The translations under genes were made by a program, and so were the position numbers. Positions 18,633-24,807 of a stretch of DNA of 33,763 nucleotides are shown in pieces. The notes under the pieces are model-generated. The model saw only the letters and a program-made list of their open reading frames with translations. It was not told the DNA's origin and did not search any database. The first letter of the stretch is position 1, and each line of letters starts with the position of its first letter. Source of the DNA: an uncultured Bacteroidia bacterium (GTDB taxonomy: Bacteria > Bacteroidota > Bacteroidia > NS11-12g > UBA9320); assembly GCA_905478335.1 (NCBI GenBank), contig CAJQIC010000059.1, forward strand, positions 1 through 33,763, in the 5' to 3' direction.

Positions 18633-19943
18633 ATGGAAACTATCGACAAACTGCCTATCAGCAAAGTAAAACGAGCCTCAAAGTTGATTCAGACTGGCGC
18701 AAAAGTCGGGACCAACTATCTCAAATACTATGGCAACAAGCTAAGATATTCTGAAGAGGAGGCGAAAACAAAGTTGGATGAAGCAAATGCTTCTGATATT
18801 TACGATAGCTTAAAAAATTTAAAAGGCAGTCCATTAAAAGTTGCCCAAATGTTGAGTATGGATAAAAGCATCCTTCCAAAAGCTTACGTGGACCAGTTCT
18901 CACTTGCACAATTTTCTGTTCCTCCTTTGTCGGCTCCATTGGTAATCAAAACATTTACGCGATACTTCGGAAAATCGCCACAAGAATTGTTTGACCAATT
19001 CGACCCCAACGCAATCAATGCAGCGACCATAGGACAAGTCCATAAAGCGCAAAAAGATGGAAAAACATTGGCCATTAAGATTCAGTATCCAGGTGTAGCC
19101 GATAGTATTAGCAGTGACCTTGCTTTGGTTAAGCCAATAGCCATGCGGATGTTCAACATTAAAGGTAAAGATTCAGACAAGTACTTTAAAGAAGTTGAGC
19201 AAAAACTGATTGATGAAACGGATTATACCAATGAGATAAAGCAGAGTGTTGAAGTAGTAGAAGCCTGTAAACACATTCCAAACTTAAGATTCCCGCATTA
19301 CTACCCAGCGTATTCTACAAAACAAATTATAGCAATGGATTGGATGACGGGTAAACATCTTTCTAAATTTGCTAAGGAGAATACCGACCCAGACATTGCT
19401 AATCAAGTTGGTCAAACGTTGTGGGACTTTTATATGTACCAAATTCATACCCTTAAAAAAGTGCATGCCGATCCGCATCCTGGGAATTTCCTAGTGGATG
19501 ATTCCGGACAACTCATTGCTTTGGACTTTGGTTGTATGAAAGAAATTCCAAACGACTTTTATATACCCTATTTTGAACTTACAGACCCCAATACATTAGA
19601 AAACAAAGATGTATTTATGGACAAGCTTTCAGAGCTAGAGATTATTCGTTTAGATGATACAGAAGAAGAAAAAGCCTTCTTTGGGGAAATGTTTCATGAC
19701 CTTCTTCAATTGTTCACTAGGCCTTTAACCCAAGAAACCTTTGACTTTTCAGACCCCGCGTTCTTTAACGAAATTGCAAACCTTGGCGAACAATTTACAA
19801 AAAGTACAACATTGAGAAAGATGAATGGTAACCGCGGTTCAAAGCATTTCATTTATGTCAATCGAACATTCTTTGGTTTATATAACCTGATGCACGAAAT
19901 AGGCGCAAAAAACGTAAGAATAGAAAATTTGGCCATTGCTTAA
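18633..19943 (+). CDS. ABC1/AarF/UbiB-family atypical kinase
   Basis: 436 residues. It carries the family's hallmark elements: KGSPLKVAQ (64-72, the KxGQ-type motif), the Ala-rich nucleotide loop variant AATIGQVHKA, the lysine in LAIKIQYPGV, the catalytic loop HADPHPGN (278-285) and the metal-binding DFG at 298-300. UbiB-family proteins are atypical kinases or ATPases that support quinone and lipid metabolism, often at membranes. No strong C-terminal membrane helix is seen here. It is co-transcribed with the TetR regulator. Substrate unknown; Bacteroidota make menaquinone, so it should not be equated with E. coli UbiB. Confidence 0.9.
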   Translation: METIDKLPISKVKRASKLIQTGAKVGTNYLKYYGNKLRYSEEEAKTKLDEANASDIYDSLKNLKGSPLKVAQMLSMDKSILPKAYVDQFSLAQFSVPPLSAPLVIKTFTRYFGKSPQELFDQFDPNAINAATIGQVHKAQKDGKTLAIKIQYPGVADSISSDLALVKPIAMRMFNIKGKDSDKYFKEVEQKLIDETDYTNEIKQSVEVVEACKHIPNLRFPHYYPAYSTKQIIAMDWMTGKHLSKFAKENTDPDIANQVGQTLWDFYMYQIHTLKKVHADPHPGNFLVDDSGQLIALDFGCMKEIPNDFYIPYFELTDPNTLENKDVFMDKLSELEIIRLDDTEEEKAFFGEMFHDLLQLFTRPLTQETFDFSDPAFFNEIANLGEQFTKSTTLRKMNGNRGSKHFIYVNRTFFGLYNLMHEIGAKNVRIENLAIA

Positions 19944-20004
19944 GGCCATTTAGCCGGTTAAAATTATATCCAAATTAAAGATTTTCATAAATCAACAAAA
20001 TCGC

Positions 20005-20012
20005 TATCTTTG
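20005..20012 (+). promoter_or_regulatory. Promoter -7 box of the rimP-nusA-infB operon
   Basis: TATCTTTG matches TAnnTTTG and is followed by GCAGCG. A TTTT (19982-19985) lies at the -33 distance (19-base spacer). The transcript would begin near 20018, before the hairpin at 20036-20064. Confidence 0.65.
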
Positions 20013-20035
20013 CAGCGTTGGTAAGAGACAGGAAA

Positions 20036-20064
20036 GAGGGAATTAAAAATTCCCTCTTTTTTTT
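20036..20064 (+). terminator. Terminator-shaped hairpin in the rimP-nusA-infB leader (candidate attenuator)
   Basis: GAGGGAATT (20036-20044) pairs perfectly with AATTCCCTC (20048-20056) around AAA, and eight T follow (20057-20064). Flanking AAA/TTT can extend the stem to 12 pairs. It lies after the promoter -7 box and 11 bases before rimP, so it is inside the leader rather than at the end of the previous gene's own unit. It could also terminate read-through from the ABC1 gene. Confidence 0.8.
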
Positions 20065-20075
20065 ACGCAATTAAT

Positions 20076-20543
20076 ATGTCTTTGGTAGAAACAATAAAAG
20101 CACTGGTTGAGGAAGAGGTAAAAGACTCCCCAATTTTTGTTGTGGACATTGTTGGAGGAGACAGAAGCAGAAAAATTCAAGTTTTGGTAGATGGAGACAA
20201 AGGGGTCACCGTTGATCAATGCTCGAAAATCAGCAGATCAATTTCGAAAGTAGTGGATGATGAAGAATTCGAGTCAGACCCATTTATTTTGGAAGTATCT
20301 AGCCCCGGAGCTGACGAACCCTTAAGAAACGAAAGACAATACCACAAACATGTTGGTCGTAAATTATCTGTTGAAACCGAATCGAGCACCACAGAATACA
20401 AACTTTTAGAAGTGACCGAAACTCATATCGTTTGTGCTCCAGTGCTGGACAAAAAACAAAAGAAAAATAAAGTTAAAGTGGAACCTGTTAGTATCAGTTT
20501 CGACGACATTATAACATCAACCGTAGTATTATCTTTTAAATAA
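20076..20543 (+). CDS. rimP: Ribosome maturation factor RimP
   Basis: 155 residues, cytoplasmic; needed for maturation of the 30S subunit. The N-terminal domain shows FVVDIVGGDRSRKIQVLVDGDKG and SKISRSISKVVDD, followed by the family motif LEVSSPGADEPL (the SSPGxxxPL core), and the C-terminal half forms the small beta barrel (GRKLSVETE, IVCAPVLD). Length is normal for Bacteroidota. It is first in the classic rimP-nusA-infB operon, with nusA starting 6 bases after its stop. Expression is probably affected by the leader hairpin. Confidence 0.95.
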   Translation: MSLVETIKALVEEEVKDSPIFVVDIVGGDRSRKIQVLVDGDKGVTVDQCSKISRSISKVVDDEEFESDPFILEVSSPGADEPLRNERQYHKHVGRKLSVETESSTTEYKLLEVTETHIVCAPVLDKKQKKNKVKVEPVSISFDDIITSTVVLSFK

Positions 20544-20549
20544 AGGAAA

Positions 20550-21785
20550 ATGACTTTAGGACTAGTAGAATCGTTTGCGGAATTTAAAGAGTTCAAGAAC
20601 ATAGACAGAGCCACTATGATGGCCGTTATGGAAGACGTCTTTCGAAGCATGCTTCGAAAGAAGTTTGGAGATGACTCAAATTTTGACATTATCATCAACA
20701 CGGATCAAGGAGATTTGGAAATCTATCGAAATCGAAAGATTGTGGACATGGATGAGGTCGAAGACCAAAACCAAGAAATAAACATCGAAGATGCATTGAA
20801 GCTTGAAGATGATTATGAAATTGGTGAAGATGCCATTGAAGAGATTAAATTACTCGATTTTGGCCGTCGCGCAATACTTGCTGCAAGACAAACACTGCTT
20901 TCTAGAATTCTTGAATTAGAGAAAGATGAGTTATTTAAGAAATATAAAGACCGTGTTGGTGAAATAATCACAGGAGAGGTTTACCAAATATGGAAGCGTG
21001 AATTAATGGTTTTGGATGATGAAGGCAACGAACTCATTCTACCAAAAACAGAAATGATTGGACGCGATTTCTTCAAAAAAGGAGACAGCGTTCGCGCCGT
21101 TGTATTGCGTGTTGAAATGCAAAACAACAACCCACGTATCATACTTTCTCGTACTGCTCCAATTTTCTTAGAAAGACTGTTTGAACTTGAAGTACCTGAA
21201 ATCTTGGACGGATTAATCACTATCAAAAATGTGGTTAGAGAGCCAGGTGAGCGTGCTAAAGTTGCTGTAGAGAGCTATGACGATAGAATCGACCCAGTAG
21301 GTGCTTGTGTTGGAATGAAAGGTTCTCGTATTCACGGAATTGTTCGTGAGTTACGTAATGAAAATATTGACGTTATTAACTTTACAACCAATACACAACT
21401 ATACATTCAACGTGCTCTAAGCCCAGCTAAGGTGTCAAGCACCGCTTTAGACGAGGAAGAGAAGCGTGCTGATGTATATTTGCCAAGTGACCAAGTTTCA
21501 CTTGCCATTGGTAAGGGTGGGTTTAACATTAAGCTTGCTGGTAGATTGGTAGGGTACAACATCGATGTATATCGTGAAAATGTTGAAGAAGACGACGTAG
21601 ACGTTGACTTAGACGAATTCACTGACGAAATTGATGAGTGGATAATTGACGAGTTAAAAGCAATTGGCTTAGATACGGCCAAAAGCGTATTAGAAATGGA
21701 AGTAGACGACTTGGTTCGCAGAACTGAATTAGAAGTTGAAACCATAACTGAGATTAAAAAAATATTTGAAGCGGAGTTTGATTAA
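20550..21785 (+). CDS. nusA: Transcription termination/antitermination factor NusA
   Basis: 411 residues. The N-terminal polymerase-binding domain (about 1-125) is followed by an S1 domain (about 130-200: GEVYQIWKRELMVLD) and two KH domains (DPVGACVGMKGSRI and SLAIGKGGFNIKLA hold the GxxG loops). A short acidic C-terminal stretch ends in a helix-hairpin-helix-like segment (LKAIGLDTAKSVLEME). It binds RNA polymerase and modulates pausing and termination at hairpins. It lacks the two acidic repeats of the E. coli protein, as expected for the phylum. Its position behind a leader hairpin makes autoregulation plausible. Confidence 0.95.
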   Translation: MTLGLVESFAEFKEFKNIDRATMMAVMEDVFRSMLRKKFGDDSNFDIIINTDQGDLEIYRNRKIVDMDEVEDQNQEINIEDALKLEDDYEIGEDAIEEIKLLDFGRRAILAARQTLLSRILELEKDELFKKYKDRVGEIITGEVYQIWKRELMVLDDEGNELILPKTEMIGRDFFKKGDSVRAVVLRVEMQNNNPRIILSRTAPIFLERLFELEVPEILDGLITIKNVVREPGERAKVAVESYDDRIDPVGACVGMKGSRIHGIVRELRNENIDVINFTTNTQLYIQRALSPAKVSSTALDEEEKRADVYLPSDQVSLAIGKGGFNIKLAGRLVGYNIDVYRENVEEDDVDVDLDEFTDEIDEWIIDELKAIGLDTAKSVLEMEVDDLVRRTELEVETITEIKKIFEAEFD

Positions 21786-21811: not shown

Positions 21812-21898
21812 GAAGAACACGGTGAATATCATGAAGTAGCGGGGATCATTACATATGGTCGGTTCGCGTTCGCTACATGGTTTTTGTGAATGTTCTTC
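21812..21898 (+). ncRNA. Large imperfect hairpin in the nusA-infB intergenic RNA
   Basis: The outer stem GAAGAACA (21812-21819) pairs with TGTTCTTC (21891-21898). The inner stem CATG (21830-21833) plus TAGCG (21837-21841) pairs with CGCTA plus CATG (21871-21879), with a 3-base bulge AAG. The two stems are coaxial, separated by an internal loop. The apical 29 bases hold no long stem. It ends 23 bases before the infB start. There is no T-tract, so it is not a terminator. A role as RNase processing site or translational control element for infB is inferred. Confidence 0.55.
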
Positions 21899-21921
21899 AG
21901 AAATTAAAAAGTAAAACATTA

Positions 21922-24807
21922 ATGGCTGGAAAAACTCACAGAATTTCAAAAGTTGCAGCAGAGCTCAATGTTAGCTGGAAAAGCTTGATTGAATATCTCA
22001 ACCAAAACGGTTATGAGGTAGACATGAAGATGACGGCTAAGATCGCCCAAGATATGTATGACGTTCTTGAACAGAAATACCGTTCTGACAAACAAGCGAA
22101 AGAAGAATCTCAAGCACTAGAGATTAATATTCGTCGACAAGACGAAACGCTTACAGCAAATACCAATAAACCGGGTACGAAGAAGAAGAAAAAAGGTGAA
22201 GACGAAGCGCAAGACATCGTCTTAATTAAGGATACTGGATTAAGTCGTCCAAATGCCTCTGAAGAGCCTGTAACTGAAGAAAAGCCAGAAGTCAAGGAAG
22301 AAGTTCCAGAGGTGGAAGCCAAAGAAGAAAAACCTGAGCCAAAAGAAGAAGAGGCTCCTAAGGTTGAAGAGGAAACCCCAACGACCAAAAAGACTGAGAT
22401 TCCAGGATTTAAGGTACTTGGTAAAATTTCGTTAGATAAGCCTGAAAAGAAAAAGAAAGAAGAGCCCGAAGCTCCAAAAGAAGAGAAGAAAGAAGAAGTA
22501 ACCGAGGAAAAACCGGTTGAAGAAAAAGCTCCTGAAAAGCCAGTTGAAGAAAAACCGGTTGAAGAAAAAACTCCTGAAAAGCCAGAAGCTAAAAAAGAAG
22601 AAGAACCAAAAAAGGTTGAACCTGAAGCCCCAAAAGCGCCTGCAAAGGAAGAGGGGGAATCAATTATTAAGCCTAAATATGAAAAACTAGGTGGCCTTAC
22701 GATTAAAGGAAAAATCAAACTTCCTGATCCACCGTCGCCTAAAAAAGTAGCAAGCTCTGGTGGCAAACCAGAAGACAACCAGCGCAAGAAAAGAAAACGA
22801 ACGGTTAAGTCTGGACCTGTTAAATCAGGTGGCAATTTTGGAAAAGGTCGTTACAACAAAGGTGGTGGCAAAGACGATGCAAAAGACGAAATCACAGAAA
22901 AGGAAATCCAAGATAAAATCAAGGCAACACTTGCTAAACTTGGTGGAAATAAAGGTAGTAAAGGACCATCTCGTCAGAAATTAAGACGACAAAAAAGAGA
23001 TGATCACAAAACCACGCGTGAGGAAGAAATTATCAAACAAGAGCTTGCGAGCAAGGTCTTAAAAATCACTGAATTTGTAACGGCTAACGAGATGGCATCG
23101 TTAATGGACGTTTCTGTTAACGACATTATCACCGCATACTTCTCGCTTGGCATGATGGTGTCTATCAACCAACGTTTGGATGCGGAGACCATTAAAATGG
23201 TTGCCGATGAATTTGGTTTTGAAATTGAGTTTGTTGACGCAGAAGAGCAAGTCGAATTTGGCGAAGAAGAAGTTGATAAACCAGAAGATCTTGAGGAACG
23301 CGCACCGATTGTAACCATCATGGGTCACGTTGATCACGGTAAAACTTCATTACTTGACTACATCCGAAATACGAACGTAATTGCAGGTGAAGCCGGTGGT
23401 ATTACACAGCACGTTGCTGCATACGAAGTAGAACTTAAAGACAAAAAACGCATAACCTTTGTTGATACTCCAGGTCACGAAGCCTTTACCGCGATGCGGG
23501 CAAGGGGAGCAAAGGTCACGGATATAGCCATTATTGTAATTGCGGCTGACGACAGTGTGATGCCTCAAACAAAAGAGGCAATAAGCCACGCCCAAGCGGC
23601 AGATGTACCGATCATTTTTGCTTTCAATAAAATAGATCGCGACGTTTCAAACCCAGATAGAATTAGAGAAGAGTTATCTGCCATGAATATTTTGGTAGAA
23701 GAATGGGGTGGTAAATATCAAGCACAAGAAATCTCAGCGAAAAAAGGTACCAATATTGACGAGCTACTCGAAAAAGTATTACTCGAGGCTGAATTATTAG
23801 AACTAAAAGCCAATCCAAACAAACGTGCTAAGGGTTCTGTGATGGAAGCCCGATTGGACAAAGGTCGAGGAATATTGGCATCAGTTCTGGTACAAGAAGG
23901 TACACTTCGAGTTGGAGACCCACTCGTTGCTGGTCATCATTTTTGCCGTGTACGGGCGATGTTCAATGAGCGTATGAATCAGGTTAAAGTTGCTGATCCG
24001 GCTACGCCAGTAAACATATTAGGATTTACTTCTGCACCTACAGCAGGTGATGTATTCCAAGTTTTTGAATCTGAACAAGACGCCAAAGATGTTGCGAATA
24101 GACGTGCTCAATTGCAGCGTGAACAAGGTATTAGAACAACCAAGCATATTACGCTAGATGAAATTGGACGACGTTTGGCAGTAGGTAACTTTAAGGAATT
24201 AAAGGTTATTGTGAAGGCCGATGTGGATGGTTCTGCAGAAGCACTTGCTGATTCATTGTTGAAACTATCTACCGAAGAAATACAGGTTAACGTTATTCAT
24301 AAATCAGTTGGTCAAATCACTGAGTCAGATGTATTATTAGCTTCTGCCTCTGATGCGATAATTATCGGTTTCCAAGTTAGACCAGCGGCTTCCGCAAGAA
24401 AGCTTGCTGAAGCTGAAGAAATTGATATCAGAATGTATTCTGTCATCTATAAAGCCATTGAGGAAATCAAGTCTGCCATGGAAGGTATGCTTGCTCCTGA
24501 GTTTGAAGAAAAGATTACAGGTAATGCAGAAATTCGTGAGGTATTCAAAATCACCAAGGTTGGTACAGTTGCCGGTTGTATGATTACAGACGGTAAAATA
24601 CAGCGAGACAATAAGGTTAGACTTATTCGAGACGGTGTAGTTGTATATAGTGGTGTATTAGCAGCACTAAAGCGATTTAAAGACGACGTTAAGGAAGTAA
24701 ATCGAGGTTTTGAATGTGGAATGCAGATCAAAAACTACAACGATATTCGGATTAACGATATCATCGAATGTTACACCGAGGTTGAGGTGAAACGTAAGTT
24801 GAAATAA
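21922..24807 (+). CDS. infB: Translation initiation factor IF-2
   Basis: 961 residues from the ATG at 21922, where the family start [18 protein letters not shown] begins; the frame is open 15 codons further up, but those overlap the intergenic hairpin. An N-terminal IF2N domain is followed by a long, charged, low-complexity linker (about 60-350) rich in E, K and P, including a 14-residue direct repeat (KPVEEK-x-PEKP). A second IF2N-like part comes before the GTPase. The G domain has GHVDHGKT (468-475), DTPGHEAF and NKID, then domains II-IV. It brings fMet-tRNA to the 30S subunit. The initiator tRNA gene is also in this window, about 20 kb away. Confidence 0.97.

Follow-up and report, generated by a model that had tools for sequence, protein, structure and literature searches.

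The question raised by this locus is what a complete intrinsic terminator does between a promoter and the operon that this promoter would serve. The element lies in a window of 33,763 nucleotides (the whole stretch of DNA that was analysed) from an uncultured member of the Bacteroidia. A sequence-only reading of the window had placed a terminator in the leader of rimP-nusA-infB, and had proposed attenuation by NusA as the simplest explanation, with a small RNA or a barrier to transcripts from the preceding gene as alternatives. The identity of the operon is confirmed by Pfam for all three genes, which follow the hairpin on the plus strand: rimP, encoding the ribosome maturation factor (20076..20543; PF02576, E 2.9e-16); nusA, with NusA_N, S1, and KH domains (20550..21785; PF08529, PF13184); and infB, encoding IF-2 (21877..24807; PF11987, PF04760). 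The position 21877 is the start of the longest open reading frame of infB and is probably too early; relatives begin with MAGKTHRIS, found here at about 21922. Upstream, an ABC1/AarF kinase gene (Pfam) ends at 19943 on the same strand.

Anatomy of the leader

Direct reading gives a -7 box, a hairpin, a run of eight T, and the start of rimP, in the order that had been claimed. The box, TATCTTTG (20005..20012, plus strand), is of the TAnnTTTG type of Bacteroidota sigma-A promoters. A weak -33-like element, with TTTT in place of TTTG, may lie 19 nt upstream of it (19982..19985, plus strand), at what we take to be the usual spacing between the two motifs; we have low confidence in this assignment. 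The box alone is weak evidence for a promoter, as TAnnTTTG occurs 34 times on the two strands of the window; its position 5' of the hairpin is conserved. According to PMC9723704, the TAnnTTTG box of Flavobacterium psychrophilum spans -12 to -5 and transcription starts 5 nt 3' of it, from which we infer a start at about 20017 on the plus strand.

The predicted transcript would open with a short leader (20017..20032, plus strand) that has neither a stable fold nor a reading frame conserved in the genus. It would continue into the terminator hairpin (20033..20059, plus strand), whose G-rich 5' arm AAAGAGGGAATT (20033-20044) and C-rich 3' arm AATTCCCTCTTT (20048-20059) enclose the loop AAA. A perfect stem of 9-12 pairs followed by eight U had been claimed; we read 12 perfect pairs and a T8 tract (20057..20064, plus strand), which is the expected 3' end of a terminated RNA. 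The ATG of rimP comes 11 bases past this tract. Computed from the predicted start to the U-tract, the terminated RNA would measure about 46-48 nt, in agreement with the earlier figure of about 46 bases. One leader-peptide candidate was rejected: a TTG-started frame of 18 codons (20018-20074), with a TAA just before the ATG of rimP, is probably due to chance, its TTG being absent from a relative of the same genus (L004). No conserved leader reading frame was found, even within the genus.

The hairpin is exceptional in its surroundings. The predicted folding energy of 20015-20100 is -22 kcal/mol (z -3.9), which was equalled by none of 200 shuffled sequences. No other perfect stem on either strand of the window reaches 10 bp and has a T-rich 3' side, and 20 first-order Markov randomisations of the window produced no such stem. 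The pattern AGAGGGN6-14CCCTCTTTTTT occurs a single time in the 2.78-Mb genome of the organism, at this leader. A simple terminator scan called the hairpin on the minus strand only, because the stem extends into the T run.

Conservation of the hairpin in the phylum

Conservation of the order of box, hairpin, and rimP in relatives had been suggested as a check, and this order, with a hairpin having its G-rich arm first and its C-rich arm second and with the U-tract, is kept in all 30 rimP loci of the same GTDB-type family. In one locus of the same genus (L006), the hairpin and rimP are separated by a stretch of N that looks like an assembly gap. We then consider a phylum-wide sample of 197 loci, made of Bacteroidia, other classes of the phylum, and named species located via NusA (Pedobacter, Mucilaginibacter, Brumimicrobium, Sphingobacterium, and others). 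A hairpin followed by a U-tract lies 5' of rimP in 195 of them, and 186 exceed a modest score, counts in which related genomes are non-independent observations. The two loci lacking a scored hairpin are one at a contig end and another where a GAGGGG..CCCCTC stem is visible and the U-tract is poor. A TAnnTTTG box is found 11-58 nt 5' of the stem (median 23) in 137 of the 195 leaders, where the predicted terminated RNA has a median of 43 nt.

To put these counts in context, 404 other genes from the same contigs were scored identically, their start being the first ATG of the open frame. With rimP start codons approximated in the wide sample and a simple scoring scheme of our own, a hairpin scoring at least 20 lies within 200 nt upstream of 81% of the rimP genes and of 2.5% of the controls. 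When a promoter box in front of the hairpin is also counted, the values become 62% and 0%. This enrichment and the conservation of the element strongly support the proposal that the operon leader carries an attenuator.

In the stem, G comes first in 30/30 loci of the family, in 31/36 of the class sample, and in 73/76 of the named relatives; polarity is mixed in the other classes of the phylum. In several of those classes, the rimP leader hairpins of loci L032, L034, L042, L051, L053, L054, L056, and L116 have CCC first and GGG second, and so resemble the inverse motif that Naville and Gautheret described for a second gammaproteobacterial terminator.

Probable selection on the stem

Compensatory changes are seen at the pairs that adjoin the GGG/CCC core on the loop side, including in the family of the window. 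The first inner pair is a standard one in 107 of 128 cases, against 66.5 after shuffling, and the second in 89 of 114, against 55. At the same time, many Bacteroidia share the stem GAGGGGAC..GTCCCCTC. Of 119 genomes of the class, 31 contain exactly one copy of the corresponding pattern GAGGGGACN2-10GTCCCCTC, and the stem was directly 5' of rimP in nine of the ten loci that were checked. At the remaining locus, L206, the hairpin lies away from rimP, after another gene, with A-rich and T-rich flanks that make it look like a bidirectional terminator. In the genus of the window the inner pairs are A-T, hence the full GGGGAC signature is absent here. Shorter markers were discarded: GGGGN2-16CCCCTTTT is unspecific, with several occurrences per genome, and AGGGGN5-9CCCCTTTTTT also tags ordinary terminators in the family, so that the longer stem patterns are needed for specificity. 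The compensating inner pairs, together with the shared stem sequence, argue for a hairpin that is probably selected as an RNA, with some sequence preference too. Judged by eye, sequence conservation of the 16-nt leader and of the loop ends at the genus; outside it, only the hairpin is kept.

Proposed control of read-through

We regard the element as a transcription attenuator of the rimP-leader type in which read-through is most likely set by NusA, a reading to which we give a probability of roughly 0.68. RNA polymerase would start at about 20017 and meet the intrinsic terminator after about 45 nt. As the order is promoter, terminator, gene, transcripts from the box must pass the terminator, and only the polymerases that do so would yield the rimP-nusA-infB mRNA. 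No antiterminator is apparent: among the 137 leaders with a box, the RNA 5' of the 3' arm folds no better than chance (mean z 0.26). Given that there is no competing fold, a protein that acts on both polymerase and hairpin would most likely determine the fraction of read-through, NusA being the prime candidate (with NusG). Plentiful NusA would promote folding of the hairpin and release of the transcript, while under scarcity more polymerases would pass and the operon would be expressed.

Two precedents, by analogy, make NusA, which Pfam places in the very operon that the hairpin would control, the regulator with the best support. The transcripts of the Escherichia coli operon increase once NusA-dependent termination is lowered (PMC6511841), and in Bacillus subtilis NusA-stimulated termination in its own leader has been reported (PMC12288461). 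Some features argue against this reading. The RNA 5' of the hairpin would be only about 16 nt long, which leaves little room for the RNA-binding domains of NusA. In the window copy, the stem is strong and perfect and the U8 is uninterrupted. The hairpins of NusA-dependent terminators in B. subtilis tend to be weak. In addition, their U-tracts are commonly interrupted towards the distal end (PMC8060035). Across the wider set, T becomes less frequent at distal positions of the U-tract, down to 0.49 at position 8, which fits factor-dependent terminators; the unbroken U8 of the window copy does not. Moreover, read-through of so strong a terminator might be too rare to sustain the expression of essential genes, unless the stop is actively relieved.

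An attenuator read by another regulator is a rather unlikely alternative, in which RimP, IF-2, a ribosomal protein, a cold-shock protein, or NusG would recognise the conserved stem. The preservation of GAGGGGAC/GTCCCCTC in Bacteroidia, beyond mere pairing, suggests recognition; feedback by RimP was named as possible by Naville and Gautheret (PMC2965389), and NusG also stimulates intrinsic termination (PMC8060035). Against it stand the experimental precedents from E. coli and B. subtilis, which point to NusA, and the compensated changes of the inner stem in the family of the window. A related idea, also unlikely, is that Bacteroidia have a sequence-specific rimP attenuator, with the GAGGGGAC-loop-GTCCCCTC hairpin recognised by a protein about 45 nt past the start, so that the decision would be taken during the exchange of sigma for NusA. 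If true, this would be a timing that has not been described in B. subtilis or E. coli, where the leaders are long. The hairpin might also act as a constitutive, unregulated damper that lowers the output of a strong promoter by terminating a fixed fraction of polymerases. We found no antiterminator, aptamer, or conserved reading frame in the leader, and the window copy resembles a strong ordinary terminator, as expected from a damper. Yet the element is kept across the phylum beside the gene of a termination factor, and a weaker promoter would have the same effect, which makes a damper improbable.

The two other proposals of the sequence-only reading fare worse. That the terminated 46-nt RNA acts in trans as a small RNA is very improbable: it would possess its own promoter and terminator, and an enterobacterial rimP leader fragment is among the attenuator-derived small RNAs associated with ProQ (PMC5391140), but the confinement of conservation to the hairpin outside the genus, with no conserved unpaired seed region seen by eye in leader or loop, leaves this idea without positive support. 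It is hardly credible that the hairpin merely ends read-through transcripts of the ABC1/AarF gene, even though this gene, which ends at 19943, precedes rimP on the same strand. The hairpin sits 3' of the rimP promoter box, and it persists in 51 of 116 loci where the nearest upstream open reading frame is called divergent (by a crude calling of frames). The element is thus independent of the upstream gene, which contradicts this explanation as a general account of the element.

Comparison with known systems

The element has all the defining features of the published rimP-leader attenuator except the exact core GGGc..gCCC, and is the form that this attenuator takes in Bacteroidota. The rimP-leader was called the most ubiquitous attenuator, with this conserved core and with NusA proposed as regulator (PMC2965389); that text names Firmicutes and Gammaproteobacteria and leaves Bacteroidetes unmentioned. 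As in the description by Naville and Gautheret in 2010 (PMC2965389), the terminator lies in the 5' UTR of rimP-nusA-infB, a G-rich 5' arm and a C-rich 3' arm are followed by a T-stretch (here GAGGG..CCCTC and T8), and there is no visible antiterminator. The distance to the gene, 4-130 nt in the published set (PMC2965389), is here 11 nt after the T run. The differences concern the stem, the promoter, and the length. The GGG/CCC of the core is followed here by an A-T pair, the C-G pair of the rimP-leader (PMC2965389) being found in 22 of 128 distinct stems, and the arm reads GAGGG-AATT where many other Bacteroidia have GAGGGGAC..GTCCCCTC and the rimP-leader GGGc..gCCC. Unlike in the published element, a promoter of the TAnnTTTG type precedes the hairpin and the leader is very short.

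A scan of the window against Rfam at gathering and permissive thresholds gave no meaningful family at the site, its weak matches being generic hairpins. RF01770, the gammaproteobacterial rimP leader, describes an element at the same position of the same gene; it had no match in the window, and none of 41 Bacteroidota genomes, this one included, exceeded its cut-off, where the E. coli control was detected. A structured element 5' of rimP in F. psychrophilum was reported in 2021 (PMC9723704), for the same gene in the same phylum. The text describes it as conserved in other genera of Flavobacteriaceae and without an Rfam match, and neither calls it a terminator nor ties it to the rimP-leader (PMC9723704). 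We presume that it is the same element as here.

The B. subtilis nusA attenuator is said, from work of Mondal in 2016, to need no antiterminator. Its resemblance to the arrangement proposed here lies in autoregulatory, NusA-stimulated intrinsic termination in a 5' leader, which was shown experimentally for B. subtilis (PMC12288461) and is deduced here. Its leader has about 180 nt (PMC2965389), against about 60 nt in the window. The element is thus ordinary in kind, a confirmation rather than a surprise, and its only new part is the conserved Bacteroidia stem GAGGGGAC...GTCCCCTC. Why Bacteroidia keep this stem sequence, placed so near the start site, is where most is left to learn. In a phylum where tools of this kind are scarce, the short and simple leader could provide a testable reporter of NusA activity. 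These results give the rimP-leader attenuator a defined consensus in the phylum Bacteroidota, to which it is hereby extended, and suggest that the control of nusA by termination is either very old or has evolved repeatedly.
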